A stretch of DNA of 51,920 nucleotides. Origin: a virus. Shown here in pieces: positions 8,689 through 51,036 of the stretch (positions are counted from its first letter, which is position 1; each line of letters begins with the position of its first letter). The stretch lies in IMG/VR virus record IMGVR_UViG_3300018080_000234, positions 1-51,920 of that record. The stretch is one strand, 5' to 3'. The translations under genes were made by a program, and so were the position numbers. Below the pieces are notes generated by a model. The model was not told where the DNA came from, did not search any database, and was given only the letters and a program-made list of their open reading frames with translations.

Positions 8689-8693
8689 CACCC

Positions 8694-8962: not shown

Positions 8963-8968
8963 CACCCC

Positions 8969-9046
8969 CGCCCGCTGGCACTCGCTGGGGTTCAATTCCT
9001 CGGCCGGGCGCATCCCCAAAAGGGGAAATAAAGAGAGGAGAAAGAG
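8969..9046 (+). promoter_or_regulatory. Leader module C: second tRNA-like helix plus tetraloop and ribosome site
   Basis: The same architecture as module B: CGCCCG (8969-8974) with CGGGCG (9005-9010), and GCTGGGG (8984-8990) with CCTCGGC (8998-9004) around TTCAATT. Substitutions against module B turn Watson-Crick pairs into G-T pairs, so the fold is kept. A CCCC-AAAA-GGGG hairpin (9014-9025) and AGAGAGGAG precede ATG 9047. Confidence 0.7.
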
Positions 9047-9819: not shown

Positions 9820-9854
9820 CTTGACTTTTGCCGATATTGGGCAATCATGAACGC

Positions 9855-14077: not shown

Positions 14078-14242
14078 ATGTACGTCTACATTCAAACCGA
14101 GCCAAAGCTCTGGACAGTTGGTTTTTATAAGCCCGATGGGCGATTTGAGCCAGAGTCAGATCACGAAAGCCCCAGCGCAGCCGCAAGCAGGGTTAATTAC
14201 CTCAATGGGGGGATAAGCAGTACAGGAGATCGCAATGGCTGA
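14078..14242 (+). CDS. Conserved-type small phage protein (54 residues)
   Basis: An ATG preceded by GGGAGGTAAGCA. The sequence begins MYVYIQTEPKLWTVGFY, followed by PDG, ESDHESPSAAASRVNYLNGG; this arrangement is familiar from small proteins encoded near recombination genes of many phages. Its molecular function is unknown to me. It overlaps the ERF gene by 8 bases. Confidence 0.6.
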   Translation: MYVYIQTEPKLWTVGFYKPDGRFEPESDHESPSAAASRVNYLNGGISSTGDRNG

Positions 14243-33234: not shown

Positions 33235-33731
33235 GATTCAGCGTTGATATAGAAAATAAAGAGCAAGTTGTCAACTGGCTTGAGCGGTTGAAAAAAGGCA
33301 CAGACGATGCACGGCCTTTCTGGAACGCAATGACGCCGAAGATTAATGAGTTCGTTGATAAGCAATTTGATCCTGCATCTGATTCCGGGAAGGGGTGGAA
33401 AAGCCTGAAACCAAAATATAAGACGTGGAAAATCAAAAAGGGCTATTCCCCTGCCATAGGCGTAATGACTGGCAGGCTCCGGGAAGGTGCAGGAGTTCAA
33501 TCGTCGAAGAAATACAAAAAGAAAGAGCTCATATGGGCAGTCAATCAAAACCATGTGCAGGATCACGGCGTGAGATATGCGGGCTATTTTAATGCCGAAC
33601 GTTCTATATATAAGCGAATAGCATTGAGGCTCAACAGCTTTCTCGGAATCGATATCAAGAAATTCGAGGGAGGCTCGCATAATAGTTTCACGTATATCTG
33701 GTTGAGAAATGAATTGAGGAAGCTGCAATGA
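33231..33731 (+). CDS. Virion morphogenesis protein (Mu gpG/HK97 gp10-like)
   Basis: A 166-residue protein. WLERLKKGTDDARPFWNAM, then SGKGWKSLKPKYKTWKIKKG and a LREGAGVQSSKKYKKKELIW stretch match phage virion morphogenesis proteins that complete the head-tail joint. It ends with a conserved-looking WLRNELRKLQ helix and overlaps the next gene by ATGA. Confidence 0.7.
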   Translation: MRFSVDIENKEQVVNWLERLKKGTDDARPFWNAMTPKINEFVDKQFDPASDSGKGWKSLKPKYKTWKIKKGYSPAIGVMTGRLREGAGVQSSKKYKKKELIWAVNQNHVQDHGVRYAGYFNAERSIYKRIALRLNSFLGIDIKKFEGGSHNSFTYIWLRNELRKLQ

Positions 33732-34198
33732 TAAAGGAAGTGATAACAGCATTGAAAAATCAACTGACTGTGTACCCCGCCCTGGCTGCTTACGCAAGTG
33801 ATTCAGGTTATATCGCAGAAGATCCCTACGAGTTAGTCCAGTCTAACAAAATGCCATTTTTCAATATTAATCCACAGGGGCAAGTTGTTGAGAAACTCGA
33901 TGATATGTCATTCACGGACATCGAAAGGCATACAATGCAATTCGTGATTCAATTTGCGACAAGGGCGATGGCGAAGAATGTGGCGGTAATGGGAGATGAT
34001 ACCAGAACAGGAATTCTTGATTTTATGGATGATATATGGAGCGGAATTATCTCTGACAGGACTATCGGTGGGACCGTGGATGGCATCACGCCAGGATATG
34101 CTATTGCTATTGATGTTATCGAGCTTGAGGATCAGCAGAGGATATTCGTGGCGGGTGCCGAGATGATTGTCGAATTCTTTAGGGATGTTGCGCTATGA
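33728..34198 (+). CDS. Tail terminator-like protein
   Basis: A 156-residue protein. It begins with a VITALKNQLTVYPALAAYA helix, followed by beta strands with IERHTMQFVIQFATRAMAKN and a final EMIVEFFRDVAL strand, the fold order of tail terminator proteins (gpU-like). It is the last head/tail gene before the glycan cassette, with which it overlaps by ATGATG. Confidence 0.6.
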   Translation: MIKEVITALKNQLTVYPALAAYASDSGYIAEDPYELVQSNKMPFFNINPQGQVVEKLDDMSFTDIERHTMQFVIQFATRAMAKNVAVMGDDTRTGILDFMDDIWSGIISDRTIGGTVDGITPGYAIAIDVIELEDQQRIFVAGAEMIVEFFRDVAL

Positions 34199-35004
34199 TG
34201 GGGACGGTTCAATATCAGGGAAGAGAAAAGGAAGTCTTAATTTTCCATAACGGGAAATGTACGACTGTTGGCCCTGATGGATTCGCGACAATTCCGTTGC
34301 AGGAATGCAAAAGACTTATTGAAAGGGCTGAAGATTTCGTACCGACAAGGGAAACCGCAGAAATGCTACAAAGATTCGACTGGAAGGGCACACCGACTGC
34401 CAACGGGATGCTGAAAGGCGAAAGGCTTTTTATTATCGGGTGCGGTGGGAGTCTCAAGGGATTTGATTTCTCCCGGCTTGATAACGAATGGACGTTGGTG
34501 ATAAACCATTCACTCAGATATTATCCAAATGCGAAGATGCTTTTATTCCTCGACGTAACCTTCGTCAAGGAATGCAAGCAGGAAATTGATGATTTCAAGG
34601 GGATTGTTTTCGCATCATTCAGGGCTGATTATAATGACAGGGAATTTAAAGGTAAGCACATTGTTTGCTTTCCTATAAATAGAAAGGCCCCCCAGGAGGA
34701 TATAAACCTCGGATTGTTTAATGGCGAATTGGCGGGATTAACCGCTGTAAATCTCGGGATAGTAATGGGGGCCTCTGAAATATACTTGCTCGGGTTTGAT
34801 ATGGACTCGGAGGCTGAAGATTATTATTTCTTCGAGGATCAATTCAAGCCGAAGAGCAAAAAGCATAGAAGCGGGAAAGATGTAAAAGTCCTTCCGCAAT
34901 TTGAAAAGTTTAAACCATATAACGACAGGATATTTAACTGCAATCCTGTCTCGAAGATAAAGACGTTTGAATATAGAGATATCGAGGATGTTTTGAATGG
35001 ATGA
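34195..35004 (+). CDS. DUF115/MAF-like or sialyltransferase-like protein with phage-type N-domain
   Basis: A 269-residue protein opening the glycan cassette. Residues 75-235 carry ERLFIIGCGGSLKGFDFSRL (nucleotide-sugar-type glycine loop), YYPNAKMLLFLDVTF, LTAVNLGIVMGASEIYLLGF and DMDSEAEDYYFF, the pattern of DUF115/GT42-like proteins that act on nonulosonates. The first 60 residues (YQGREKEVLIFHNGKC, VGPDGFATIPL) look like a small beta module of phage connector proteins, so the enzyme may be tethered to the virion. It overlaps the NeuA gene by eight bases. Confidence 0.6.
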   Translation: MMGTVQYQGREKEVLIFHNGKCTTVGPDGFATIPLQECKRLIERAEDFVPTRETAEMLQRFDWKGTPTANGMLKGERLFIIGCGGSLKGFDFSRLDNEWTLVINHSLRYYPNAKMLLFLDVTFVKECKQEIDDFKGIVFASFRADYNDREFKGKHIVCFPINRKAPQEDINLGLFNGELAGLTAVNLGIVMGASEIYLLGFDMDSEAEDYYFFEDQFKPKSKKHRSGKDVKVLPQFEKFKPYNDRIFNCNPVSKIKTFEYRDIEDVLNG

Positions 35005-35638
35005 AAGAATTTATTACGTGATTCCTGCCCGGGCGGGATCAAAAGGACTCCCCGGGAAAAACAGAAAACTCATGAAGCATACATTCAAGAGGATTCCATA
35101 TCAGGGATCGAACGTGGTGGTGACTTCAGACGATGAGGAAATCTTGAAAGAAGCCAAGCAGCGGGGATATCAATATATCAAAAGGAATCCCGAGCTGTGC
35201 AGCGATACGGCCTCGATGAAAGATGTGCTTCTCGATACCGTCAAGCGAATAGAAATGAATGATGACGATATCATCGTGATGCTCTATCTCACGTATCCCA
35301 ACAGGACATGGGGAGATGTGATTGATGCGCTTGAATTCTTTTTAAAGGAAAATGCCGACAGCCTGCTGTGCAAGGCAGATGCCAGGACGCATCCGTATCT
35401 GTGTATGTTTCCAGTGAATGAGCATAACGGAATTCAGATCATTGGACACGGTTTATACAGACGACAGGATTACCCGGAGGTATTCAGGATCAGCCATTAT
35501 ATTTTTATCGGTAGAGTTAAGGAGATTCAAAACCTGAATCAGAATCTCTACAATGAGGGCACGGTATTTTTCCCGGTTGAAGATGGCGTGGACATTGACA
35601 CCGAGGAAGATTTCATAAAATTTCAGAAGGGGGCGTAA
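34997..35638 (+). CDS. neuA: CMP-nonulosonic acid (sialic acid) synthetase, NeuA-like
   Basis: A 213-residue cytidylyltransferase that would activate a sialic-acid-like sugar with CTP. IPARAGSKGLPGKN (residues about 9-22) is the nucleotide-binding signature. VVTSDDEEILKEA, RNPELCSDTASMKDVLLDTV and a final DIDTEEDFIKF are further family marks. It is slightly shorter than typical bacterial NeuA (about 220-230 residues). With two NeuB-like synthases downstream it gives a coherent pathway. Confidence 0.8.
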   Translation: MDERIYYVIPARAGSKGLPGKNRKLMKHTFKRIPYQGSNVVVTSDDEEILKEAKQRGYQYIKRNPELCSDTASMKDVLLDTVKRIEMNDDDIIVMLYLTYPNRTWGDVIDALEFFLKENADSLLCKADARTHPYLCMFPVNEHNGIQIIGHGLYRRQDYPEVFRISHYIFIGRVKEIQNLNQNLYNEGTVFFPVEDGVDIDTEEDFIKFQKGA

Positions 35639-35806
35639 ATGGCAACACAAAAATCTACCACTACCAGAAGGCCGATGAGCAGGCGCGATGGATCGGGTCG
35701 CGGGAAGATGGGTGGTCGCAATAGAAATACCGGTGGATGCTCCTCGGGCGGTCCCGGTGGTGGAAAGGGTGGCGGTCGAGGAAAAGGGGCGAACAGGAAG
35801 GGATGA
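35639..35806 (+). CDS. Gly/Arg-rich basic peptide (55 residues)
   Basis: It starts one base after the NeuA stop and ends overlapping the CysC start (ATGATG). The last 35 residues are almost only Gly, Arg, Lys, Asn and Ser, with GG-R and R-G repeats (for example SGGPGGGKGGGRGKG). Such RGG-like tails bind nucleic acid or polyanions; binding to acidic, sulfated glycan is another possibility. The reading frame has no stop despite extreme composition, and its exact fit between genes supports translation. Confidence 0.5.
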   Translation: MATQKSTTTRRPMSRRDGSGRGKMGGRNRNTGGCSSGGPGGGKGGGRGKGANRKG

Positions 35807-36315
35807 TGGCGCATACTATATGGCTGACAGGCTTGCCGTGTTCAGGCAAATCAACAATTGCCAAAATCATTTATGAGCAATATGGCGATTATGTTATTCT
35901 TGATGGTGACGAGCTGCGAAGTGGGCTGTGTTCCGATCTCGGATTTTCTGCCGAGGATAGGGCCGAGAACATCAGGCGGGTCATCGAGTTGTGTAAAATC
36001 CTGAATAAAAACGATGTGAATGTCGTCACGGCCTTTATCTCTCCCCTTCGGGAGTTGCGGAGACGGGCGAGAGGGGAGATCGGGAATTGTGATGTTATAT
36101 GTTTATTGGCGAGCCTTGAGGAATGCAAGAAACGAGATGTTAAGGGGATGTATGCGAAGGCAGCGAGAGGAGAAATTGAAAGATTCACGGGTGTTAGTGA
36201 TCCATATGAAAGTGGGGAAGATGACGAATACGAACTTGACGCAGAGTGCCCAATTGAGGTTACGCGACTCGAGCTTTTCGATATTGTGGACAAAATACGG
36301 GAGGATTATAGCTAA
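35803..36315 (+). CDS. cysC: Adenylylsulfate (APS) kinase
   Basis: A 170-residue kinase that makes PAPS, the universal sulfate donor, from APS and ATP. The P-loop GLPCSGKS, DGDELRSGL, the FSAEDRAENIRR helix and the lid KGMYAKAARGEIERFTGVSD with PYE are all intact. ATG 35803, after GGAAGGG, is preferred over the longer frame, which overlaps the RG-rich peptide. Its partners are the sulfotransferases at 38350-39791. Confidence 0.9.
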   Translation: MMAHTIWLTGLPCSGKSTIAKIIYEQYGDYVILDGDELRSGLCSDLGFSAEDRAENIRRVIELCKILNKNDVNVVTAFISPLRELRRRARGEIGNCDVICLLASLEECKKRDVKGMYAKAARGEIERFTGVSDPYESGEDDEYELDAECPIEVTRLELFDIVDKIREDYS

Positions 36316-36472
36316 AACTATCAGCTATAGGCTAATCATGACGATATTGACGGCATCGATAGTATTTTTCTTCTCAAGGGATTATTATGTGTCAATCGGA
36401 TCTGCAATATGCGAATTGGTGATGAAGTCATTTATATATTTTTTCCATGAAATTCTATGGAGGAGCGAGTGA
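36284..36472 (+). CDS. DUF2061 small membrane protein
   Basis: The frame ending at TGA 36470 encodes KTISYR, a hydrophobic segment, a second amphipathic span and the end FFHEILWRS, which match the DUF2061 family (K-x-I-S-W-R ... Y-x-H-E-x-x-W). The first ATG (36338) would remove the conserved KTISYR, so initiation must be upstream: TTG 36284, a non-standard codon after GGGAGG (36299-36304), or ATG 36221. DUF2061 genes often neighbour cysC/cysN genes in bacteria, which supports a link to sulfate activation. Confidence 0.6.
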   Translation: MWTKYGRIIAKTISYRLIMTILTASIVFFFSRDYYVSIGSAICELVMKSFIYFFHEILWRSE

Positions 36473-36885
36473 GGATTCATTTCATGGATGTTGAGCATAT
36501 AGGGTTTATCGGACGATTTGTCGTATTCCATAAAGGGCACACGTCAATCATAATGGAAAAGTACAAAGAGACGGGCTTGCCGGTGTTGATACTGATCAGG
36601 GATACATATTATGATGAAGTCAAGCCAGTGGACAGAGCGGCTGTAATTACGGCGTGGATGGATAAAAACGAGATAGAGGGTATCGTGATGGTAATACCGG
36701 ACATCAAAGGCATATATTATGGCCGTGGTGTTGGGTATGAAATCGAAGAGATCGAGGCACAAGAGGAAACAAAAACGATATCCGGGACAAGAATCCGGGA
36801 CATGATTAGAAACGGTGATTCTACATGGACAGAGTATGTTGACAAATCGATTGTTGAGGACGTGAAAAGGGCAATATGGAAATAG
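36469..36885 (+). CDS. HxGH-family nucleotidyltransferase (ATP-sulfurylase-like motifs)
   Basis: A 138-residue protein; GTG 36469 after GGAGGAGCGA and a GTGA overlap is the best start. IGFIGRFVVFHKGHTSII holds the HxGH nucleotide site and KTISGTRIRDMIRNG the ISGTxIR motif, both shared by ATP sulfurylase, NMNAT and cytidylyltransferases. It is much smaller than ATP sulfurylase. Next to APS kinase and DUF2061 it might supply APS; activation of another metabolite is equally possible. Confidence 0.65.
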   Translation: MRIHFMDVEHIGFIGRFVVFHKGHTSIIMEKYKETGLPVLILIRDTYYDEVKPVDRAAVITAWMDKNEIEGIVMVIPDIKGIYYGRGVGYEIEEIEAQEETKTISGTRIRDMIRNGDSTWTEYVDKSIVEDVKRAIWK

Positions 36886-37619
36886 CAATGTTCACAGTCT
36901 TATCGAAAGACTTCCTTGTCGGATACAAGGTGTTTATGAAGTCATTTCTCTATCATAATCCGTGGTTCGATTTGGATTTCATAATTCTCGATATAGATTT
37001 ACCGCAGGAAGTGAAGGGCATTTGCAAAGAGATTTACCCGAAAGTAATTTTCAGGAAGCCAGATTATAAAGCCTATGAAGATGTTAATTTTTCAGCAACC
37101 CATCAAAAGCTACAAAGTACATATTATTTTCTGGATGCTTTTTGCCAGTATGATTACGACAAGGTTGTTTCTATTGATGTTGATATGGTTATTCTGGATT
37201 CCCTTGAGCCTGTTTTTAAGGACACGGGAGACGGTATCGCAGCCTGTCCGGGGTACTCGAAAAGAAAAGATAGGATAGTAAAACTGATGAATGCCGGTCT
37301 TTTCGTGGTGGGGAAAAAATATCTCAATGAAAAGACATACATGGACTTGATTGAAATTATCAAACAGGGCTTTTCGATGCCCGAGCAGAAAACGATGAAT
37401 ATCTATTTCGACGGGAAATTCGAGTGGCTCCCGAAAAGATATAACATTGAAAAGCGCATGATGAAAACACGAAGGTACAGAAAGATTCTGTCTGGTATGG
37501 CTGGCCTGCATTTTGTGGGACTCAAGCCGTGGCAGGATCACTCGAGGTGCCCTGATAACGAAAAGGGGTATGAGAAATTTGAGGATATATGGTGGACATG
37601 GTATCACAAGAAGGTATGA
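36876..37619 (+). CDS. GT8-like glycosyltransferase, copy 1
   Basis: A 247-residue retaining-type glycosyltransferase. SIDVDMVIL has the DxD metal site at residues 101-103; a later NAGLFVVG and HFVGLKPWQDHS match the GT8 end motif (H-x-x-G-x-K-P-W). It shares long stretches with the next gene (MKSFLYHNPWFDLDF, EIYPKV). The acceptor is unknown, presumably the cassette glycan. Confidence 0.75.
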   Translation: MEIAMFTVLSKDFLVGYKVFMKSFLYHNPWFDLDFIILDIDLPQEVKGICKEIYPKVIFRKPDYKAYEDVNFSATHQKLQSTYYFLDAFCQYDYDKVVSIDVDMVILDSLEPVFKDTGDGIAACPGYSKRKDRIVKLMNAGLFVVGKKYLNEKTYMDLIEIIKQGFSMPEQKTMNIYFDGKFEWLPKRYNIEKRMMKTRRYRKILSGMAGLHFVGLKPWQDHSRCPDNEKGYEKFEDIWWTWYHKKV

Positions 37620-38353
37620 AAGCATGTCTTTTCGCAATAATGACTGAAGATTATTTCAAGGGATTTTATGTTACCATGAAATCATTTTTGTATCATAATC
37701 CATGGTTTGATCTGGATTTCGTCATAATTGATATTAATTTGAATGAGGAAACGAAGAAAAAAATTTTAGAGATTTACCCGAAGGTTCTTTTCAGGAAGCC
37801 AAATTACGGCTTATACGAGGGTGGAAATTATGAAAAGCTATACAAGAAGAATAAGGTAAATCAGTTTTATCTTGAGTGCTTTAATTTATGTGATTACGGC
37901 AAGGTTGTTTCAATTGATCTCGATCTCCTCATTCTTGGCGATATGAGATCATTATTTTTTAATACCGGGGATGATCTGTATTGCCCGAAAGGGTTTTCGA
38001 TAAGGAAAAAACGGGTATTGAACACATGCCAGGCCGGGGTTTTTGTTGTTGGTAAAAACTATATAAATAAAGAAATTTACCTCAAACTTATTGAGTTTAG
38101 CAAGCAGGGCTTTAGATACGGCGAACAAACAGTTATCAATAAATATTTTCAAGGTCAGATTAAATGGTTACCGAAGCGATATAATGTTGAAAAAAGTATG
38201 CTAAAAATAAAAACAAAACGTCAATTGTTTAACGATTGCGTGGTGCTTCATTTTGTCGGTCTTCATCCGTGGCAAGATCACTCAAATTGTAAAGATAAAG
38301 ATAAAGGATATGAGGACCTGGAAAATCTCTGGTGGGAGTGGTATCATAAATGA
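37616..38353 (+). CDS. GT8-like glycosyltransferase, copy 2
   Basis: A 245-residue tandem paralogue starting by ATGA overlap at 37616. SIDLDLLIL (DxD at 101-103), QAGVFVVG and HFVGLHPWQDHS are kept, though Lys of the KPW motif is His. Divergence from copy 1 is substantial, so the two probably add different sugars or use different acceptors. Confidence 0.75.
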   Translation: MKACLFAIMTEDYFKGFYVTMKSFLYHNPWFDLDFVIIDINLNEETKKKILEIYPKVLFRKPNYGLYEGGNYEKLYKKNKVNQFYLECFNLCDYGKVVSIDLDLLILGDMRSLFFNTGDDLYCPKGFSIRKKRVLNTCQAGVFVVGKNYINKEIYLKLIEFSKQGFRYGEQTVINKYFQGQIKWLPKRYNVEKSMLKIKTKRQLFNDCVVLHFVGLHPWQDHSNCKDKDKGYEDLENLWWEWYHK

Positions 38354-39060
38354 ATATCTCTCACGCGCATAAGTTCATCTTCATTCATCCTGCCAAATGC
38401 GGGGGATCTGGCATTAGGAAAGCATTCAAGGCATCCATACAGGGGACTGGCGATTATAGCGTGCCATGGAGGCACAGCAGCCCGAAGGATTCAAGAGCAT
38501 ATATCGGGGATACTATATGGAAATCATTCTACAAATTCACGGTTGTGAGAAATCCGTTTGTGAAACTTTTAAGCTGGTATCAACACCCTATTCGATTCAA
38601 CACAAAAAAGATTGTTAAAATGAAGAAGAGCTCTGAGGCAGTGCGGAAAGAGGAAGAGGCGAGATATGGCACCATTGACGAGCTGAAAAGAGAAATTGCC
38701 TATCTGAAAGACATAAGAAATTTTCCGAAGATGATTGATTATTGGCTGACTGATGAATATCGGGAAAAGATGTCTCAAACAAGAATGAAATTCTACATAT
38801 TTGAAAACATGGTGGATTGGCTCGATGACGGTGACGGGATAAATTTCGATAGGATTATTCGAATCGAGAATCTTGAAGAGGACTGGCAGCTTATATGTAG
38901 AGAAATCGGAATCAGGTATTTGAAAGTTGTCAACAAAAACATCGGATATATCGGGCAGAGCGAATTGATTTATAAGGATTTTTATACTCCTGAGCTGGTG
39001 AAGAAAGTTTCAAAACTCTATGAGAAGGATCTGGAATATTTCGGATACAGGTTTGAGTGA
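38350..39060 (+). CDS. Carbohydrate sulfotransferase, copy 1
   Basis: A 236-residue Sulfotransfer_2-like enzyme using PAPS. FIHPAKCGGSGIRKAF is the 5'-phosphosulfate loop, and FTVVRNPFVKLLSWYQ the 3'-phosphate strand-helix. The remainder has an IENLEEDWQLICREIG helix, typical of this family's C-terminal half. It would sulfate the glycan made by the neighbouring enzymes, with PAPS from the CysC gene 2 kb upstream. Confidence 0.8.
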   Translation: MNISHAHKFIFIHPAKCGGSGIRKAFKASIQGTGDYSVPWRHSSPKDSRAYIGDTIWKSFYKFTVVRNPFVKLLSWYQHPIRFNTKKIVKMKKSSEAVRKEEEARYGTIDELKREIAYLKDIRNFPKMIDYWLTDEYREKMSQTRMKFYIFENMVDWLDDGDGINFDRIIRIENLEEDWQLICREIGIRYLKVVNKNIGYIGQSELIYKDFYTPELVKKVSKLYEKDLEYFGYRFE

Positions 39061-39791
39061 TGTTTGTGTCGGATAAATATAAATTCATCTTCTTACACAT
39101 GCCGAAAACAGGCGGGACGAGTGTGAGGAATGCGCTTCAAAAAATAGACATCCAGGCCAAAAAGAGAGAATGCTTTCTGCATAGCAATGCGATGTATTCA
39201 AAGGCATTTCTCGAAAAGACTGGCCGCAAATGGGAGGACTATTTCAAGTTTTCCATTGTGCGGGATCCATATCCGAGAATGGTGTCATTCTATGAGCATA
39301 TGGTAAGAATTCGCAAGAGGCATGAATTTGTATTGAATGGGTACAGGACTAAAAGGGAAAAGCTCCTCAGAGGCGAGTATCAGGACATAAGACAGACAGT
39401 GAAATTTAAGGATCTCGAATACGCGATAATGTGGGACGGTCGGGAGGTAACGAAATATAATTATGATTCGTTCGAGGATTTTATCAAGAATCCCTACTAC
39501 TGGATGCATAGACTCAATACACGGAAGATCGATTTCACGGTGAATTATGTTGACTGGCTTTCTATTGACGGGGAAATCGCTGTTGATTTCGTTATGAAAC
39601 TTGAGAATATCAAGGATGATTGGGGAATAGTTTTAGATGCAATGAAATTACCTAAAAAAAGCCGTGTTGAAATTGGTCACGACAAAAAGGGGAGTAATAT
39701 CCCTGACTGGAAGCTATATTATAACGATGAATTGACAGAAATTGTCGCAAATAGATTCAGAAAGGACTTTGAATATTTTGGATACAATTGA
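39057..39791 (+). CDS. Carbohydrate sulfotransferase, copy 2
   Basis: A 244-residue enzyme, ATGA overlap. FLHMPKTGGTSVRNAL and FSIVRDPYPRMVSFYEH are the two PAPS motifs, and KLENIKDDWGIVLDAM the C-terminal helix. It is closer to the HNK-1-type sulfotransferase pattern (H-x-P-K-T-G-G-T-S) than copy 1. Two copies suggest sulfation at two positions. Confidence 0.85.
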   Translation: MMFVSDKYKFIFLHMPKTGGTSVRNALQKIDIQAKKRECFLHSNAMYSKAFLEKTGRKWEDYFKFSIVRDPYPRMVSFYEHMVRIRKRHEFVLNGYRTKREKLLRGEYQDIRQTVKFKDLEYAIMWDGREVTKYNYDSFEDFIKNPYYWMHRLNTRKIDFTVNYVDWLSIDGEIAVDFVMKLENIKDDWGIVLDAMKLPKKSRVEIGHDKKGSNIPDWKLYYNDELTEIVANRFRKDFEYFGYN

Positions 39792-40320
39792 AAAAATATC
39801 TGTGCGTCGTGCTAAATTTGCGAAGTCTGGATTGGTAGATTTCTGCAATTACATTCCCGAGGAATGCAGGGGCGCAATTGCAGAGATCGGCTCATATGTC
39901 GGAGACAGCACAGAGATATTTGCTCAGTACTTTGAGAAAGTATATTCAATTGATCCATTCCTCAACGGCTATGACGACAATGATGATTCCTCTCATAAAT
40001 ACGATATGAGAATTGTCGAGGCTCAATTTGACGAGCTGTGCAAACAATATCCGAATATCCGCAAGATAAAAATGAAGAGCGAAAATGCCGTGATGCTATT
40101 TCATGATAACACTGTCCCTGTTGTTTATATTGATGCCCTTCATACATACGATGGCGTGAATGATGACATATGGCGATGGTATCCGAAAATCAGGAAGGGC
40201 GGATATCTCGCGGGACACGATTACCAGGGGCGCTTCCCCGGGGTGATTGAGGCTGTGCATAAATTCAGAAAGCCGGATGCAATATTTAGAGATACGAGTT
40301 GGGTGATTAAGATTGGATAG
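39769..40320 (+). CDS. Class I SAM-dependent methyltransferase (Methyltransf_24-like)
   Basis: A 183-residue protein from TTG 39769 (AAAGGA upstream); TTG 39742 is an alternative. AIAEIGSYVGDST is the SAM glycine loop, YSIDPF the acidic strand, and VVYIDALHTYDGVNDDIWRW with GGYLAGHDY matches the Methyltransf_24 family. Family members modify sugars or are linked to glycosyltransferases. The target here is probably the cassette glycan. Confidence 0.7.
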   Translation: MNILDTIEKISVRRAKFAKSGLVDFCNYIPEECRGAIAEIGSYVGDSTEIFAQYFEKVYSIDPFLNGYDDNDDSSHKYDMRIVEAQFDELCKQYPNIRKIKMKSENAVMLFHDNTVPVVYIDALHTYDGVNDDIWRWYPKIRKGGYLAGHDYQGRFPGVIEAVHKFRKPDAIFRDTSWVIKIG

Positions 40321-40942
40321 ACAATGGTACAACGAGGTAAACGGCCTCTCTATAGAGGAGCAATTCAACAGGCTTTATCAGAGAAAGATGCGCCTGCGTT
40401 CAGAAGATGAGTCTTTGTGGAAAAGTGGGAATCCATTCAGGAATACCGAAGCATTGAGGAGAGAGATTCCGAAGATATTTAAGGAATTGGGAATTAGGTC
40501 GTTTGTGGATGTCGGGTGTGGTGATTTCCTATGGCTGTCAACTATCGATTGGACTGGAATTTCTTATCTCGGAATAGATATTGTGCAGGATTTAATCGAA
40601 AGGAATATACGAAAATATCCGGGGTTCAATTTCATAAAGATGAATGCAATCGAGAAGATCCCATCGAAAGCAGATATGATTTTTATCAGGAGCATTTTCA
40701 TTCACCTGGGCTTTCCCGATTCATTGAAGATTATTGAAAATGTGAAGAAGAGCGGATCGACATATATGATGGCTTCCACGCGTGAAAACAAGAAAGTAAA
40801 TTATGAGCCGGTGTGTCTCATGCTGCAGCACCAGAATTTATTGAGACCTCCGTTTAACTTCCCGAAACCGCTCATGCTCATCAAAGAGATGGATATAAAA
40901 ACGAATAATCATATGGGAGTATGGAAAGTCAATGAATTATAA
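40313..40942 (+). CDS. Class I SAM-dependent methyltransferase
   Basis: A 209-residue protein starting at TTG 40313 by overlap. FVDVGCGDFLWL is the SAM-binding loop and YLGIDIVQDLI the acidic strand; IFIRSIFIHLGFP the motif-IV region. The N-terminal helical part (about 65 residues) is longer than usual. The acceptor is unknown. Confidence 0.7.
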   Translation: MDRQWYNEVNGLSIEEQFNRLYQRKMRLRSEDESLWKSGNPFRNTEALRREIPKIFKELGIRSFVDVGCGDFLWLSTIDWTGISYLGIDIVQDLIERNIRKYPGFNFIKMNAIEKIPSKADMIFIRSIFIHLGFPDSLKIIENVKKSGSTYMMASTRENKKVNYEPVCLMLQHQNLLRPPFNFPKPLMLIKEMDIKTNNHMGVWKVNEL

Positions 40943-41531
40943 AGGCATATACGACAAGCTCTATTCTGTCGGGTATCATGACAAGGGGAAAAATCTCGGT
41001 CAACAATATGTACCATTTCTCTGTCAGCGATTCAAGTTTAAATCTGTGCTGGACGTTGGGTGTGCGAATGGGTTGTCTGTTAAATCCTTCCAGAACTATC
41101 GTAAATTTTCGTACGGAATTGATATCTCGGAAATTGCCATCAGGTATGCAACGGAGCAATATCATGTTCGGAATTGCATAGAGGGGAATGTTTTAAACAT
41201 CCCATTTCGGGACAGATTTGTCGATGCTGTTTTTACTTGTGATGTCCTTGAGCACCTTGCTCCCCATGACATACGAAAGGCGATAAAGGAAATTATTCGG
41301 GTATCAAGGAAATACCTTTTCATCAAAGTGAGCGACACCATTGAGCACAACAGGGAATTTCTCGATAAAGCCTCGCAAAAATGGGAAGAGGTCTTCATGA
41401 ATATTCCGAATCTGCACATGACCGTTTTGTCATTCAGGGAGTGGAAGGAAATTTTTCAGGGAGAATTCAAATTGAAACTTTTACATACCGAAGAGGGGCT
41501 CTGGATTTATGAATCACCAAATAAGGAATAA
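40932..41531 (+). CDS. Class I SAM-dependent methyltransferase (Methyltransf_11-like)
   Basis: A 199-residue protein. VLDVGCANGLSVKSF, YGIDISEIAIRYA and DAVFTCDVLEHLAP are successive SAM-binding and catalytic motifs of the UbiE/Methyltransf_11 group, common in polysaccharide clusters. It overlaps the previous gene by 11 bases. Confidence 0.8.
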   Translation: MNYKGIYDKLYSVGYHDKGKNLGQQYVPFLCQRFKFKSVLDVGCANGLSVKSFQNYRKFSYGIDISEIAIRYATEQYHVRNCIEGNVLNIPFRDRFVDAVFTCDVLEHLAPHDIRKAIKEIIRVSRKYLFIKVSDTIEHNREFLDKASQKWEEVFMNIPNLHMTVLSFREWKEIFQGEFKLKLLHTEEGLWIYESPNKE

Positions 41532-42567
41532 AGTCTACACCGCTGATAATCGGGAGGTATTGTATCAGACTGTCTTGAGGTGTCCTGATGGCATAGTGAG
41601 ATTATATTGCAATCACTGGACGAAGGAGAATCGGACTATCTTCAGGGAAAGCAAAGACGGCATTTCATTCGACAGTGAGCTCCATGTGGTTATCAAGGAT
41701 AGTGGTGTGTCTCATAATTTTTATCCGTTTTATGATAAGAATGGAAATTTGTATGCCATAGGGGGCCTCGATAGCTGGAAACATGAGGCGAAGTGGCGGC
41801 AGGTTGACGATTACGAAGTGTTTAAAAAGATGTTTCTTGAGCGTTTTAAAACCCCCTACATCCGTGATGTGGAAAGATTCGAGATGTTTAAAAAGCGTAT
41901 CCGGGCAAAGAAGCCACTTGAGCATACGTCGGGGCTCTATCTCTTGAAATCGGAAACAGGCGTTGAATGGACAATGGCAGAGAAGGACCCGATTATCACT
42001 GCATGGCATCCGGGATTTCACTCAGCGCTTGATTGGGGCAAGTCAACCGAATTCGACGGGCATCTGAGTTGTGTATACAACCCAAGACTTGATAAATATG
42101 TGCTCTATCTCAGGAACAATATCAGGTGGGGGATTCGATATATTCAATATTCAATGTCTGACAATCTGCGTGACTGGTCACCGTTTCAAAGCGTAAATAT
42201 AGAGGGATATGACATCGACACAGAGAATTATTACTCGCCGGTCATATGGAAGCATCCGCACAGGGAGATCTATGTCGGCATGATTCCGTTTTTCTTCGAG
42301 AAAGGCGGGAAAGGCTGCATCAAGCTGATTAAATCAGAGGATGGGATAAACTTCGAGATCGCCGAGGACATCTTCCAGAGAAAGGTGAGTCTGCTTAATC
42401 TCAAGCCGAAAAGCTATTACAACGCAATCAATGGGATTCTCACAGTTGGCGACATGATATATTTTTACATTCATCATAATTATCTCGGAGTAATACCGCA
42501 TGAACCGGTAGAGATTTACAGGTATGAGATATCAATCAGGGATCTGGATAAGGCTTTAAAATGCTGA
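41509..42567 (+). CDS. Beta-propeller glycosidase-like protein
   Basis: A 352-residue protein. Repeated strands such as FRESKDGISFDSELHVV, NFYPFYDKNGNLYAIGGLDS, GHLSCVYNPRLDKYVLYLR, YSMSDNLRDWSPF and IKSEDGINFEIAE follow the five-bladed propeller pattern of GH32/43/68-type proteins. Catalytic residues cannot be assigned. In a biosynthetic operon it may trim, transglycosylate or bind the glycan rather than degrade it. Confidence 0.6.
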   Translation: MNHQIRNKVYTADNREVLYQTVLRCPDGIVRLYCNHWTKENRTIFRESKDGISFDSELHVVIKDSGVSHNFYPFYDKNGNLYAIGGLDSWKHEAKWRQVDDYEVFKKMFLERFKTPYIRDVERFEMFKKRIRAKKPLEHTSGLYLLKSETGVEWTMAEKDPIITAWHPGFHSALDWGKSTEFDGHLSCVYNPRLDKYVLYLRNNIRWGIRYIQYSMSDNLRDWSPFQSVNIEGYDIDTENYYSPVIWKHPHREIYVGMIPFFFEKGGKGCIKLIKSEDGINFEIAEDIFQRKVSLLNLKPKSYYNAINGILTVGDMIYFYIHHNYLGVIPHEPVEIYRYEISIRDLDKALKC

Positions 42568-44021
42568 CTGAAAAACTATTCATATTCGAGATGGCAAACA
42601 ATCATCAGGGAAGCATCGAGCTTGCCAGAGGGATTATCGATGGTGTTGCCGGAATAGTTGAGAGATATGGTATTCTCGGCGCAATAAAATTTCAATATCG
42701 CGATCTTGATACATTCATCCATCCGAATTTCAGAGGGAGCGATATCAGGCACGTTAAAAGATTCGAGGAGACACGGCTTGAGCGGGAGGATTTCAAAGAG
42801 CTTGCCGAGTATGCCAGGGGGAATTTGCTGGTGATTGCCACGCCATTTGACGAAATATCCGTTGAGCTGTGTATGGAAACGGATGTCGATTATATCAAGA
42901 TTGCGAGCTGTTGTATGACTGATTGGGGGCTACTTGAGGAGGTGTCGCAGACTGGGAAAAATTTAATCATCTCCACCGGTGGGCACGGCATTGAGGACAT
43001 CGATAATGTGGTGAGCTTCTTCGAGCATAAGGATGTCGATATTGCTCTTCTGCATTGTGTGGCACTTTACCCTGCCGATCACAACATGAATATGGATTTC
43101 ATTGATAAATTGAAATCTCGTTATCCCGGTATCGATATCGGGTACAGCGGTCATGAAAGACCGGACAATCTTTTACCTGGAATTATAGCAACATCGAAAG
43201 AGGCGATGATATTCGAAAGGCATGTGGGGATTGAGAATTTGAATGATTACTCAATGAGCATCGAGCAAGCTGATCGGTGGGTGGGGACGATACTCAATAC
43301 CGCTATGAGCTGTCACATCTATGAGCGAAACGAAAAGGAAATTGAAAACATCAAGGGGCTTCAGCGTGGCGTATATGCGAACAGGGAAATAAAAGAGGGT
43401 GAGCAGATAAAGGATAATGTATATTACGCGATGCCCCGGCAATTGCAACAGCTTTCCAGTGGCCAGATGAATCAATATAGAATCGAAGTGATTGCATCCC
43501 GTGACTATGGGAAAGATGAGCCAATCTTCGAAGAGCCGAAAACGAACGATAGAATTGCGTTACTCAGGCGATATATGCACGAAGCTAAAGGCATGTTGAA
43601 TGAAGCCGGAATCAGTATCGGGGACATTTATGAGTTTGAATTTTCACATCATTATGGAATAGAGAATTTCCCGCATTATGGGGCAATTCTCATCAACATG
43701 ATTAATCGGGAATATTGTAAAAAGCTGATGATCCAATTCCCCGGGCAATTTCACCCGGAGCACATGCATAAAAACAAAGAGGAGACGTTTCATGTTCTAC
43801 ATGGAACACTTGACCTGAGGATTCAGGGCAAACTTTTTCATCTCAAGAAAGGAGACATAATCTTGATCGAGAGGCATCGGGGCCATTCATTTTCTACGAA
43901 TACCGGTGTGATATTTGAGGAGATATCCACGACCAGTATCAAGGGGGACAGCTATTATACTGACACATCAATTTATGAATCCGATCCGATTGAGAGAAAA
44001 ACGATAATGGAAAGGCCATGA
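42561..44021 (+). CDS. neuB: NeuB-type nonulosonic acid synthase fused to a cupin domain
   Basis: A 486-residue protein. Residues 1-250 match the NeuB barrel (IFEMANNHQGSIELA, AIKFQYRDLDTF, IISTGG, LLHCVALYPA, DIGYSGHE, FERHVG). Residues about 265-325 resemble the antifreeze-like (SAF) domain with RGVYANREIKEGEQI. The C-terminus (about 370-475) is a cupin with HPEHMHKNKEETFHVLHG and KKGDIILIERHRGHSF. The synthase would join PEP and an N-acetyl hexosamine; the cupin may isomerise or bind the sugar. Cupin-fused NeuB proteins are unusual. Confidence 0.8.
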   Translation: MLTEKLFIFEMANNHQGSIELARGIIDGVAGIVERYGILGAIKFQYRDLDTFIHPNFRGSDIRHVKRFEETRLEREDFKELAEYARGNLLVIATPFDEISVELCMETDVDYIKIASCCMTDWGLLEEVSQTGKNLIISTGGHGIEDIDNVVSFFEHKDVDIALLHCVALYPADHNMNMDFIDKLKSRYPGIDIGYSGHERPDNLLPGIIATSKEAMIFERHVGIENLNDYSMSIEQADRWVGTILNTAMSCHIYERNEKEIENIKGLQRGVYANREIKEGEQIKDNVYYAMPRQLQQLSSGQMNQYRIEVIASRDYGKDEPIFEEPKTNDRIALLRRYMHEAKGMLNEAGISIGDIYEFEFSHHYGIENFPHYGAILINMINREYCKKLMIQFPGQFHPEHMHKNKEETFHVLHGTLDLRIQGKLFHLKKGDIILIERHRGHSFSTNTGVIFEEISTTSIKGDSYYTDTSIYESDPIERKTIMERP

Positions 44022-44638
44022 AAGAAGATATTATACGGAGAGAGCGCACGAAATATAATCATATTCACCAGCGCGAGAAATATGGCGCAAAAACGGGGCG
44101 GGTAAAGCAGTTTGCTCTTGCGAAAGACGGGCTGCATAAATCCGTCAAAGCCGCGCTCAAGGATTCGGAAAGCCTGATTGACATCGGCTGCGGTAAAGGC
44201 GGATTCATGGATTTTTTCAGGAATCGATATCCACATCTTGAGATCGTCGGACTTGATATTGCAGAAGAGGTGAAAAAGCACAGGCCGGATCTGAATATTG
44301 TCATTAGTGACGCCGGGCATATTCCATTTGAAGATGAGCGATTTGATTTTGTGTGTCATCAGGACGGCCTTGAGCACATACCGGAGGAGCTTCTCGAAGA
44401 CACCATGAAAGAGGAATTCCGGGTGTGTAAGAAGTATATGTATTTCACCGTCGCAACACATGAAGTCAAGCATAATGATGATATTTACCGGGAGATGGGA
44501 CTCGGAGCAATTCACATCAATATGAAAACGGTCAAAGAGTGGAAGCAGGTATTCATAAAATATTTTGCAGATAACTCTTTCAGCCGATGGATATTTGATG
44601 CTGATAAAAACTGGGTGTATGTGTATTTAGAAAAATGA
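44018..44638 (+). CDS. Class I SAM-dependent methyltransferase
   Basis: A 206-residue protein with ATGA overlap. LIDIGCGKGGFMDFF, IVGLDIAEEVKKH and FVCHQDGLEHIPEELLEDTM are standard SAM-MTase motifs. It lies between the NeuB fusion and the sialyltransferase-like gene, so methylation of the nonulosonate (known in some bacterial and echinoderm sialic acids) is one option. Confidence 0.75.
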   Translation: MKEDIIRRERTKYNHIHQREKYGAKTGRVKQFALAKDGLHKSVKAALKDSESLIDIGCGKGGFMDFFRNRYPHLEIVGLDIAEEVKKHRPDLNIVISDAGHIPFEDERFDFVCHQDGLEHIPEELLEDTMKEEFRVCKKYMYFTVATHEVKHNDDIYREMGLGAIHINMKTVKEWKQVFIKYFADNSFSRWIFDADKNWVYVYLEK

Positions 44639-45324
44639 ATTTTGCAGAATACATAAAAGGAAAGCGAATCTGTTTCGTTGGTGCCTGCCCGAATATCCAG
44701 GGCATGGGAAAGGGCAAAGAAATTGATAAATATGATGTCGTTGTAAAGACGAACGGCTCGGTGCTCTTGAATTCGCCTGAATATTTCCGGGATTACGGAA
44801 GGCGGATTGATGTGCTCTATGCGAATGTGCAATTTGCCAGGGAGATGCGACCGTTACCTGTGGGGGACTTCAGGAGGCGCGGGATCAAATGGGTGTGTTT
44901 CAAGACCATAAGTGATGCTGATTTGCAATTGTATAGCAAAGAAATGAAGGTCCGCACCATCAGAAAAGTGATTAAAGTCGTGCAGCAGCAGGTCCCGGGG
45001 GCGTTGATGGGGTGTTTTATTTTTGCTGATCTCCTCAGTTTCAAGCCAAAGGAATTATATATCACTGGCGTGGACTTCTTTTTGAGCAAAAAGAAAGTTT
45101 TCGAACATGATAATTATCAAGAATATCTCAATGGGTATCTACCACCGAATATCAGGATGCAAGGGAATGAGATAAACGCAGGCAAAAAGGACGATGGCCA
45201 CAACATGCTTGAGAATACGAAGTATATTTATGGGCTGTTTCAGAAGTATAAAAATGTGAAAACAGATCCGTTTATATTCGATCTGATGCACGGAATAATC
45301 GACGGCAGGATGGTACAGACATGA
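44635..45324 (+). CDS. Sialyltransferase-like glycosyltransferase (GT29/GT42-type)
   Basis: A 229-residue protein. KRICFVGACPNIQGMGKGKE, then IDKYDVVVKTN, closely follows the large sialyl motif of GT29 enzymes (V-G-N-x-x-x-L-x-G-x-G-x-x-I-D-x-x-D-x-V-x-R-x-N). KELYITGVDFF and DDGHNMLENTKYI resemble the later motifs with the catalytic His. It is the best candidate for transfer of the CMP-activated sugar made by the NeuA/NeuB proteins of this operon. Confidence 0.65.
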   Translation: MNFAEYIKGKRICFVGACPNIQGMGKGKEIDKYDVVVKTNGSVLLNSPEYFRDYGRRIDVLYANVQFAREMRPLPVGDFRRRGIKWVCFKTISDADLQLYSKEMKVRTIRKVIKVVQQQVPGALMGCFIFADLLSFKPKELYITGVDFFLSKKKVFEHDNYQEYLNGYLPPNIRMQGNEINAGKKDDGHNMLENTKYIYGLFQKYKNVKTDPFIFDLMHGIIDGRMVQT

Positions 45325-45914
45325 TCGCCCCGCGTGAATTCTGGGAAACATGCCGAAGCAATTACGCACACCTCAAGCCATCGTGGGAATTTGATGACAA
45401 AATGGATCGCACAACAAGGCTGAAAGAAGCATTTCTGGATCACATGGATCTCAAGGGAAAGATCGTTATTGATTACGGTTGCGGCGGAGGGTTTTTGGGC
45501 AAGTTTTTATTCAGGGAATACGGAATTGCAAAATACATTGCCATAGATATCGCAAAGAGAAGTTTACGGAAGGCGTGGGAGGTAAACAGGAAATCAGATT
45601 GTGAATATATTCTGGTGCCCGTTGAATTCAGTACCCTCGGTGCTGATGTATTCATAAGCATCGCGTGTATGCAGCATTTTCCGTCTGAAGAGTACCTGAA
45701 TGAATTTCTTGAAAACTTGAATAACAGCAATGTCAAGGCAATTGCTCTTCAGATTAAGTACGGTGACGAAACTGAATTTTTCGGGACATATGACAGAAAG
45801 GGATACGGGGTGAATTGCAGGACGAATGCAAAATATATAAGCTCATTTTTGACAAACTATAATTTCAGAGATATCGGGCGACATAATTATTTGGTGTGGG
45901 AATCGAAATGGTAA
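45321..45914 (+). CDS. Class I SAM-dependent methyltransferase
   Basis: A 197-residue protein with ATGA overlap. VIDYGCGGGFLGKFL, YIAIDIAKRSLRKA and ISIACMQHFPSEEYLNEFL are the SAM loop, acidic strand and motif IV. It is the fifth methyltransferase of the cassette; all differ strongly, so substrates or positions probably differ. Confidence 0.75.
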   Translation: MIAPREFWETCRSNYAHLKPSWEFDDKMDRTTRLKEAFLDHMDLKGKIVIDYGCGGGFLGKFLFREYGIAKYIAIDIAKRSLRKAWEVNRKSDCEYILVPVEFSTLGADVFISIACMQHFPSEEYLNEFLENLNNSNVKAIALQIKYGDETEFFGTYDRKGYGVNCRTNAKYISSFLTNYNFRDIGRHNYLVWESKW

Positions 45915-46723
45915 AGATAGTTTTTGAAATAGGCATAAACCACAATGGGAAAATGGAGCTTGCGAAGAAGCTGATTGATATATCGGCATTTGCCGGTGCT
46001 GATTATGTGAAATTCCAGAAGCGCGATCCGGATACCTGTGTGTCCGAAGAGCAAAAGAAAAAAATGCGTGTCATGGAAGATGGCCGGGAAGTCACCTATC
46101 TTGAGTATCGAAAGGAAATTGAATTCGGCAAAGATGAGTATACTGAAATCGCATTTTATTGCGTTGACAGAGGCATAAAATTTTTTGCCTCCGTATGGGA
46201 CATAATATCTGCTGAATTCATGAAAGAATTTTCAGACATTGCAAAAATACCCTCGGCGAAATTGACAGATATTGAATTATTAAAATTTTGCAGGAGTGAA
46301 TTTGATTTCAGAATCTTGAGCACTGGCATGAGTATGGAAAAAGAGATTGAGAGAGCTATTGAGATTCTTAATCCGCAGGTAGTGATGCACACTAATTCGA
46401 GTTATCCTGCACGGCCTGAAAACCTGAGACTACAACATATACGATGGCTCAGGGAGAAATACAACGCCGAAATCGGATATTCCGGGCACGAATGGGGTCT
46501 CGGGACCACGTATCCTGTCATTGCTCTCGGTGCGACATGGATTGAGAGACACATTACATTGGATCATAATATGTGGGGGAGTGACCACGCTGCATCGATT
46601 GATCCTATCGGTGCAATTAAACTTGTCCGGTCCGTGAGGGATATCGAGAAAGCTCTGGAATTGGGATATTCTCCCCGGGAGATATACCCAGAAGAGGAAG
46701 AGAAGAGGGCAGCATTGAGATGA
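45908..46723 (+). CDS. neuB: NeuB-type nonulosonic acid synthase (second copy)
   Basis: A 271-residue protein; ATG 45908 overlaps the previous stop. EIGINHNGKMELAKKLIDIS, ADYVKFQKRDPDTC, ILSTGMS, HTNSSYPA, IGYSGHEWG and IERHITLD cover the whole NeuB barrel. It lacks the C-terminal SAF domain that normally completes the active site of the partner subunit, so it ends after the barrel. It may make a different nonulosonate from the fused copy. Confidence 0.8.
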   Translation: MVKIVFEIGINHNGKMELAKKLIDISAFAGADYVKFQKRDPDTCVSEEQKKKMRVMEDGREVTYLEYRKEIEFGKDEYTEIAFYCVDRGIKFFASVWDIISAEFMKEFSDIAKIPSAKLTDIELLKFCRSEFDFRILSTGMSMEKEIERAIEILNPQVVMHTNSSYPARPENLRLQHIRWLREKYNAEIGYSGHEWGLGTTYPVIALGATWIERHITLDHNMWGSDHAASIDPIGAIKLVRSVRDIEKALELGYSPREIYPEEEEKRAALR

Positions 46724-47028
46724 CATACGTTTTCGACATAGATGATACCATTTTTTTCAGTTCGATAGACGGACATGGAGAATATCAAATTGACTCTGTG
46801 AATGAAGAATTGATCGAGAGAATCAATGCCCTATTCAATAGCGGGAATACTATTATTATTTTTACCGGAAGGCACTGGAGACATTTGGAGCTTACGAAAA
46901 AGCAGCTCATGAATTGCAATGTTAAATATGATGCATTGATCCTCGGGAAGCCTATTGCTGATGTTTACATTGATGACAGGGCAATGGCACCGAGAGATTT
47001 TTTAAAGGGGGTAAAAACAGATGGCTAA
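46720..47028 (+). CDS. HAD-family phosphatase
   Basis: A 102-residue protein. FDIDDTIF holds the nucleophile Asp, IIIFTGRHWRHLELTKKQL is motif II, and KPIADVYIDDRAM motif IV, so a minimal HAD phosphatase is complete. Such short HAD proteins occur in capsule and nonulosonate clusters and could remove phosphate from a NeuB product. It is the last gene of the cassette, and its stop overlaps the major tail gene start. Confidence 0.7.
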   Translation: MTYVFDIDDTIFFSSIDGHGEYQIDSVNEELIERINALFNSGNTIIIFTGRHWRHLELTKKQLMNCNVKYDALILGKPIADVYIDDRAMAPRDFLKGVKTDG

Positions 47029-47644
47029 TAATCTGAACATCGATGTTGCCAATTTCGGGAACAATAAAGATTATATGTTTCTATATGATCCTGCGTTGTT
47101 TGTTGATTTCCATGATGGGAATGGATTGCTCGGGCTCGGGTATATGGAAGCCGAGAAAACCATCAGGATGATTGCCGAATATGCCGTTTTCAAGACGGGT
47201 ATCCCGCATTCTGAAATACGGCGAGATATTCTCGATCAAGAAATCAGCATCGAGGGAATATTAAAGCAGGTTCAGCCGGAAACAATTGCGTTGGTTTCCC
47301 AGAGGCGATTCGATGATACTGATGGGACATGGCGGCGCGTCATCTCCGGTTCGGAAGTTCCTTCGCCGGTATTTCCGTCATGTGTGCTTGTCGGGCAGAC
47401 GGTTGATGGAAACGAGTTAAGATTCTACGTCAGACGGCTGCAGATCACATCAGAGGATCTTGAGATTATTCTCGGTGGCGATGATTACTCAGGAATTCCG
47501 TTTAAAGGGACAGCGCAAAAAGACGAAACGCCATTAACGACGAATCCGACATGGCCGTATAATGCCGCGTATGCGAATCAAGACAATATCGCATTCTGGG
47601 CATGGCCGAAGACCGGAACGTCGAGTGGCGATCTTACGTTCTAA
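47021..47644 (+). CDS. Major tail (tube) protein
   Basis: A 207-residue beta-rich protein, first structural gene after the cassette. It is followed by a frameshifted chaperone and tape measure gene, the invariant siphovirus order. The acidic N-terminus, a YVRRLQITSEDLEIILGGDD strand-loop and an aromatic C-terminus fit a tube subunit. No sheath gene is present, supporting a non-contractile tail. Confidence 0.7.
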   Translation: MANNLNIDVANFGNNKDYMFLYDPALFVDFHDGNGLLGLGYMEAEKTIRMIAEYAVFKTGIPHSEIRRDILDQEISIEGILKQVQPETIALVSQRRFDDTDGTWRRVISGSEVPSPVFPSCVLVGQTVDGNELRFYVRRLQITSEDLEIILGGDDYSGIPFKGTAQKDETPLTTNPTWPYNAAYANQDNIAFWAWPKTGTSSGDLTF

Positions 47645-50415: not shown

Positions 50416-51036
50416 ATGTATGTATATAAAATAACAAATAAAATAAATGGAAAATTTTATATTGGAATTAGATCGGAATCTATTAGGAAATCTAATTCTT
50501 ATTTTGGTGGTGGAAAGTTAATCAAGAATGCTATTAAAAAATATGGAAAGGAAAATTTTACTAAAGAAGTGTTACAAGAAGTTGACGACATTGAAGAACT
50601 GAAAAACGCAGAAGAGCGGTGGATATCTTTCTTTGGCTTTCCAACTAATGAATTGATGTATAATGTCACCGGAGGGCGTGAAGGGGCGAAGGGTTATAAA
50701 CATACAAAAAAGACAAAAGACAAAATGAGTAAAAATAGTTCTAAATATTGGAAAAATAAAAAATTTTCTGAAAAAACAAAAAACAAAATATCAAATGCAA
50801 TGAGAGGAAATAAAAATCATTTTTACGGAAAACACCATACAGAAGAAAGTAAGGAAAAAATATCAATAAATAAAACTGGAAAATATACCAAAGAAAAATG
50901 TTACCAATATCGTTCCGATATCAAAATTGGAAATATTTTAGAATTAAAAGCATTTGGATTTAATTGTAAAAGAATTGCACAAATAATGAATTGCCACCCA
51001 ACAACTGTTTATAACAGGATAAAGGAATCATGTTAA
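50416..51036 (+). CDS. GIY-YIG homing endonuclease
   Basis: A 206-residue protein. YVYKITNKINGKFYIGIRSE is the GIY-YIG catalytic start with the conserved Tyr/Arg, followed by a long NUMOD3-type region of repeated short basic segments (KGYKHTKKTKDKMS, KKFSEKTKNKIS, GKHHTEESKEKIS) and a C-terminal HTH (CKRIAQIMNCHPTTVYNRI). Base composition is far richer in A/T than its neighbours, indicating recent transfer. It is free-standing, between the tape measure and fibre genes, and overlaps the fibre start. Confidence 0.9.
   Translation: MYVYKITNKINGKFYIGIRSESIRKSNSYFGGGKLIKNAIKKYGKENFTKEVLQEVDDIEELKNAEERWISFFGFPTNELMYNVTGGREGAKGYKHTKKTKDKMSKNSSKYWKNKKFSEKTKNKISNAMRGNKNHFYGKHHTEESKEKISINKTGKYTKEKCYQYRSDIKIGNILELKAFGFNCKRIAQIMNCHPTTVYNRIKESC

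Follow-up and report, generated by a model that had tools for sequence, protein, structure and literature searches.

A phage late operon carries a nonulosonate gene cassette with sulfate-activation and sulfotransferase genes, a form of a recurring viral glycosylation module

The phage genome in IMG/VR virus record IMGVR_UViG_3300018080_000234 (positions 1–51,920, analysed at full length and called the window here) contains, between its tail-terminator and tail-tube genes, a cassette of 20 genes on the + strand (34195–47028) that combines nonulosonate synthesis and activation genes with sulfate-activation and sulfotransferase genes. This cassette is a real, sulfated variant of a widespread and little-described phage glycosylation module. 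We consider that the most likely role of this elaborate sulfated form of the module is decoration of the phage particle itself, with a probability of roughly 55%. The first-pass annotation, made from the letters of the window only, had proposed a sulfated, sialic-acid-like glycan, and this was right at the level of the pathway; its product and acceptor we infer. The picture of a one-off system did not survive: related phages have the nonulosonate core at the same site, and it is found, rearranged, in many viral contigs.

The cassette is flanked on the left by a tail-terminator-like gene (33728–34198), named by position and without a PHROG match, and on the right by a tail-tube or major tail protein gene (47021–47644; PHROG 117, major tail protein, 0.0026), both also on the + strand. 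The 19 overlapping genes first called in this interval were all found as intact open frames on the + strand at the positions then assigned, and one gene of 55 amino acids (35639–35806) had been missed. With corrected starts, neighbouring genes overlap in nearly every pair, and the edges overlap as well, by 4 nt between the tail terminator and the MptE-like gene and by 8 nt between the HAD gene and the tail tube. The cassette and the flanking tail genes are laid out as in one late operon, and promoter- or terminator-like sites in the cassette region occurred at chance level only. Transmembrane-like segments were seen only in the DUF2061 protein and, as one borderline segment, in a methyltransferase. 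Family profiles and a hydrophobic-segment scan recognised no flippase, polymerase, membrane glycosyltransferase or ABC export among the cassette proteins.

The assignments of NeuA, two NeuB, adenosine 5'-phosphosulfate (APS) kinase, two sulfotransferases, two GT8 enzymes and DUF2061 were all borne out above curated cut-offs. Both NeuB proteins exceeded the PF03102 cut-off of 22.1 bits. The first (42561–44021; 123.7 bits, 1e-35) has a SAF-like region and a C-terminal cupin (Cupin_2, 5.5e-11), and it aligned with its closest PDB entry, 3g8r (5e-69), over residues 2–322, a span covering the SAF region. The second (45896–46723; 207.5 bits, 2.8e-61) ends at 275 amino acids without the SAF (antifreeze-like) domain, like its closest PDB match 6ncs (2.8e-46), which is another short synthase. 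The invariant residues in the NeuB alignment include the histidines H198 and H219, which we take to be metal ligands. The NeuA-type CMP-nonulosonate cytidylyltransferase (34997–35638) scored 37.2 bits against the PF02348 (CTP_transf_3) cut-off of 22.6 (3.6e-9) and matched the PDB NeuA 1eyr (2.8e-19), and its match to the PseF model TIGR03584 (2.6e-15) lay below cut-off. The HAD protein (46720–47028), first called a phosphatase, is small and resembles capsule-biosynthesis phosphatases; its match to TIGR01689 (8e-7) was below cut-off, and with a family profile it matched PDB 9iqw (5e-20).

The protein encoded at 44635–45324, earlier described as a GT29/42-like sialyltransferase, was just under the Pfam GT29 gathering score (21.8 versus 23 bits), and all nine of its relatives matched Pfam GT29 at E ≤ 1. 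Its structure model (predicted local distance difference test, pLDDT, 83; predicted template modelling score, pTM, 0.84) folds as a sialyltransferase: the best 29 PDB structure matches were all sialyltransferases (best E 6e-6), comprising ST8SiaIII, ST6GalNAc2, ST6Gal1, ST3Gal-type and CstII structures, with template modelling (TM) scores of 0.32–0.54. The protein earlier called DUF115-like (34195–35004) was below the cut-off of its family profile (17.1 versus 34.6 bits), so that this label stands as a weak MptE-like match. Its relatives matched Pfam MptE-like in nine of nine cases and CST-I in two, it matched PHROG 4603 (alpha-2,3-sialyltransferase) at 3e-20, and its predicted structure (pLDDT 85) had ST8SiaIII as the best PDB match in the fold search. 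These matches and the model support a relationship to sialyltransferases, making it a putative second, GT42/MptE-type nonulosonate transferase. An extra N-terminal beta domain of about 60 amino acids (34195–34401) was present only in some cassettes, namely those of the window, L004, L007, L023 and L043 and, by inspection, L113 and L114. This domain, which had no significant match in PHROGs, Pfam or a phage tblastn search, might dock the enzyme on its acceptor.

The sulfate genes follow NeuA. The APS kinase (35803–36315; PF01583, 8e-43) scored 151.9 bits against the TIGR00455 cut-off of 138.7, and it is followed by a small DUF2061 membrane protein of uncertain start (36221–36472; PF09834, 8e-12). 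Two 3'-phosphoadenosine 5'-phosphosulfate (PAPS) sulfotransferases (38350–39060, 1.8e-15; 39057–39791, 1.2e-21) scored 58.2 and 78.4 bits, respectively, against a PF03567 (Sulfotransfer_2) cut-off of 22; in the alignment the phosphosulfate-binding loop of the first deviates (HPAKCGGS) and that of the second is canonical (HMPKTGGTS). The HxGH nucleotidyltransferase (36457–36885) showed weak matches to NMNAT and ATP sulfurylase; it scored below the ATP sulfurylase profile cut-off (20.7 versus 24.3 bits), and NMNAT models scored higher in NCBIfam. In other phage contigs (L098/L099 and L101) its homologues are found close to APS kinase, a circumstantial argument for a part in sulfate activation as a candidate ATP-sulfurylase-like partner. 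By inspection, DUF2061 adjoins or is fused with APS kinase in L076, L101, L103 and L105; APS kinase with DUF2061, and with HxGH nearby in L098/L099 and L101, is a recurring phage sulfate-activation module. The added gene at 35639–35806 encodes a Gly/Arg-rich basic peptide; it sits between NeuA and APS kinase, and its stop overlaps the APS kinase start. A homologue occupies the same place in L004, from 9247, ahead of the first part of an APS kinase gene.

The remaining genes of the cassette encode further modifying enzymes. The GT8 glycosyltransferases (36876–37619, PF01501 1.4e-12; 37616–38353, 1.5e-11) are tandem duplicates with 66% DNA identity in a self-match over 36876–38353, and GT8 is single copy in other cassettes. 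Four of the five methyltransferases annotated at first were above cut-off, at 39778–40320 (Methyltransf_24, PF13578 8e-13), 40932–41531 (Methyltransf_11, PF08241 5.6e-17), 44018–44638 (PF08241 7e-13) and 45321–45914 (PF13847 1e-7), and the fifth, at 40313–40942 (PF13847 3e-5), was below and is kept as methyltransferase-like. The propeller protein (41509–42567), for which a glycosidase-like nature had been suggested, had no significant family match of its own and no PDB match; among its relatives two matched GH32N (best 1.4e-4) and one GH43 (9e-4), and we describe it as GH32/GH43-like.

A search of viral sequences for the same gene order, as the first-pass annotation had proposed, recovered the same-site cassette in six contigs of this phage lineage: the window, L004, L007, L043, L113 and L114. 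Contig IMGVR_UViG_3300017991_001715 (35.8 kb) spans both cassette edges and, where compared, is nearly identical to window positions 16088–51920. As this contig may share the window's sample, independent support rests on the diverged phages L007, L043, L113 and L114, in which both junctions are the same, with a tail-terminator homologue directly before the cassette and a tail-tube homologue directly after HAD; in L004 the cassette is cut by the contig end and the left junction is kept. An empty site was sought with the tail-tube alignment, and all five loci carried a cassette. The cassette of L114 consists of four genes only: MptE-like, NeuA, NeuB and HAD. Those of L007, L043 and L113 contain this core with GT8, methyltransferases, propeller and GT29-like genes, NeuB-cupin being found also in L007 and L043. 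The sulfate genes are absent from the cassettes of L007, L043, L113 and L114.

Related cassettes were also found on other backbones (L008, L014, L015, L019, L023, L026 and L095), and those of L008, L026 and L095 come after a neck-type gene. L008 and L026 have one sulfotransferase each above the Pfam cut-off, and L076 contains APS kinase, NeuB and HAD together with a UDP-N-acetylglucosamine (UDP-GlcNAc) 2-epimerase-like gene. Sulfation thus looks like an add-on that was joined to nonulosonate genes more than once. For the short NeuB, IMG/VR gave at least 525 confirmed matches, for the most part with NeuA and HAD nearby. In the loci examined, NeuB was present in 84, NeuA in 77 and HAD in 74, with HAD directly after NeuB in 36; these counts come from the 80 best matches plus others, near-duplicates included, and are no population estimate. 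DNA search of the window block against 50,697 phage records gave no match, nor did the GT29-like or the major head protein in tblastn against the same records. The NeuB query found no confirmed relative in GTDB contigs, in a scan that depends on exact peptide patterns. The GT29-like alignment led to one GTDB locus, L095, a 'Thermoplasmatales' metagenome-assembled genome with a full nonulosonate cassette. We rejected it as evidence of an archaeal host: a 100-N gap (L115 18650–18749, CP070724.1) joins the phage part to archaeal sequence, and the join is therefore probably a scaffolding artefact.

No membrane glycosyltransferase, flippase or polymerase was recognised, and the core of L114 is reduced to four genes; both facts point to an acceptor that is glycosylated directly in the cytoplasm, in the simplest case a virion protein, rather than to the building of a host surface polysaccharide. 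Since the four genes occupy the same site without transmembrane machinery, the basic job of the module is probably to make a nonulosonate, activate it with CMP and attach it in the cytoplasm. We infer the catalytic activities, the nonulosonic acid, the order of steps and the acceptor of the following scheme. Upon late expression, NeuB would condense a host-supplied sugar with phosphoenolpyruvate (PEP) to a nine-carbon 2-ulosonic acid, HAD would perhaps dephosphorylate the product, and NeuA would activate it as a CMP-sugar. The MptE-like/GT42-type enzyme would transfer the sugar to a cytoplasmic acceptor, probably a neck or tail protein of the same operon. The GT8 enzymes and the GT29-fold sialyltransferase would then extend the glycan and the methyltransferases would cap it, with APS kinase supplying PAPS for the two sulfotransferases and the HxGH protein perhaps serving as a small ATP sulfurylase. 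A hexosamine-making enzyme was not detected in the core cassettes, and the precursor is therefore probably supplied by the host. A route through a 9-phosphate, in which mannose 6-phosphate or N-acetylmannosamine 6-phosphate is condensed with PEP before HAD acts, would fit the NeuB–HAD pairing, but L076 has this pair together with a UDP-GlcNAc 2-epimerase. Decoration of the particle is further supported by MptE-like relatives that lie beside tail genes in the Caulobacter phages CcrColossus and CcrPW. Several points weigh against it: the virion glycan is predicted from gene content, the place in the operon may be due to late expression only, the fuller cassettes contain more enzymes than simple protein modification needs, DUF2061 is a membrane protein, and the MptE-like model reaches low TM-scores (0.35–0.39) even with its best PDB matches.

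The first-pass annotation had left virion glycosylation and remodelling of the host surface side by side; the late-operon location on which both were based holds, and the L114 core makes glycosylation of a virion protein the likelier. Remodelling of the host surface late in infection is nevertheless the main rival, credible though clearly the less probable of the two. It would place a sulfated and methylated nonulosonate on lipopolysaccharide (LPS) or capsule, and thereby block superinfection or the binding of progeny to debris. Bacterial surface glycans typically involve nonulosonates and capsule-type HAD phosphatases, and larger phages with NeuB have a broader range of sugar genes, including DegT, SDR and UDP-GlcNAc 2-epimerase. 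The lack of a recognised flippase, polymerase or membrane glycosyltransferase in the cassette argues against it, and the L114 core would be limited to an acceptor already reachable in the cytoplasm, although a lipid-linked intermediate of the host could also serve as one.

It is improbable that the sulfate genes are auxiliary metabolic genes, providing PAPS for assimilation or nucleotide balance as mere neighbours of the sugar genes. APS kinase does occur in phage contigs without NeuB nearby (L098–L106), but sulfotransferase-like genes lie near it in L098, L102 and L103 by inspection, the two PAPS sulfotransferases of the window come next in the same overlapping gene string, and sulfotransferases are found inside two other nonulosonate cassettes, L008 and L026. 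Modification of phage DNA bases or nucleotides with the sugar would agree with the cytoplasmic enzymes of the cassette and with the glucosylated DNA bases of some phages, but family profiles recognised no base-modifying gene in the cassette, which holds a late morphogenesis position, and we regard this as very improbable. A host fragment joined by misassembly was rejected: the G+C of the cassette is slightly below that of its flanks, but the junctions are conserved in the diverged phages, genes overlap at both edges and contig 001715 crosses both.

Particle decoration by this cassette has partial parallels in known systems. Maf (MptE-like/DUF115) proteins glycosylate flagellin with CMP-pseudaminic or legionaminic acid in Campylobacter and Helicobacter. 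The cassette similarly has a NeuB-type synthase, a NeuA-type CMP transferase and an MptE-like protein, that is, soluble enzymes with a proposed protein acceptor; unlike the Maf system it is phage-encoded, lies in a morphogenesis operon and is without the full nonulosonate precursor pathway, and its MptE-like protein has its nearer match in the alpha-2,3-sialyltransferase PHROG. Viruses are known to glycosylate their own virions, as in the chlorovirus PBCV-1 capsid and the capsid and tail proteins of mycobacteriophages, where the virus brings its own glycosyltransferases for the particle and, in PBCV-1, methyltransferases too. We know of no nonulosonate or PAPS chemistry in those systems, and virion modification is here proposed from gene content. 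Bacterial capsule and LPS loci for sialic, pseudaminic or legionaminic acid share NeuB, NeuA, capsule-type HAD phosphatase and sialyltransferases with the cassette, but differ in that the core cassettes have no NeuC/epimerase and that no flippase or polymerase was recognised in the cassette of the window.

Among phages, the huge phage LR756508.1 (L009, 310772–335578) has NeuB, HAD and several GT29-like and sulfotransferase-like proteins in one region; it differs as a 484-kb phage with an unannotated record and nucleotide-sugar SDR genes, and NeuA, MptE-like and APS kinase genes were not detected in the stretch read. CcrColossus gp126, 'alpha-2,3-sialyltransferase-like', is an MptE-like relative (25.5% identity) directly after a tail gene, but no homologue of the cassette's NeuB or NeuA was detected in the region read. 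Among functions tabulated from viral metagenomes, neuB and neuA are also listed (PMC3877843). The earlier view that no described phage combines CMP-nonulosonate and PAPS genes agreed with the searchable literature, itself limited in coverage, in which none was found; the phage contigs L004, L008, L026 and L076 do bring nonulosonate and sulfate genes together. A self-contained Maf-like phage pathway that coats virions with a nonulosonate glycan, which some phages also sulfate through their own HxGH ATP sulfurylase and APS kinase, and which includes GT29-fold sialyltransferases, is a tentative idea that we think rather unlikely to hold in full. Sialyltransferases of the GT29 fold are best known from animals.

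The phage genome in the window, about 51.9 kb long, is probably closed, since positions 1–70 are repeated exactly at 51851–51920. This terminal repeat is within a repetitive tail-fibre gene, inside its repeats of about 144 nt, and the repeat number at closure could therefore be collapsed. PHROGs matches include terminase, portal, major head protein, neck/tail-completion protein, tape measure and amidase endolysin, with a weak match for the major tail protein. An SLT transglycosylase is also encoded, followed by small hydrophobic genes that are spanin-like by inspection; these genes and the peptidoglycan enzymes suggest a Gram-negative bacterial host. The window further contains a serine recombinase (9828–11447), possibly of a temperate phage, an ERF recombinase (14235–15011), an MT-A70 methyltransferase (20885–21835) and a GIY-YIG/NUMOD3 homing-endonuclease-like gene (50416–51036). 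A 67-nt direct repeat (88%; 8691–8757 and 8966–9032) resembles a tRNA 3' half, and ARAGORN found only a tRNA-Thr at 16770.

If the cassette works as proposed, phages would have one more way to glycosylate their particles, which would bear on particle adsorption, recognition and stability, and with the four-gene form in L114 the question can be tested directly. Because the short NeuB, usually near NeuA and HAD, is found in hundreds of environmental viral contigs, the nonulosonate cassette may be a trait that is common among phages and has been overlooked.

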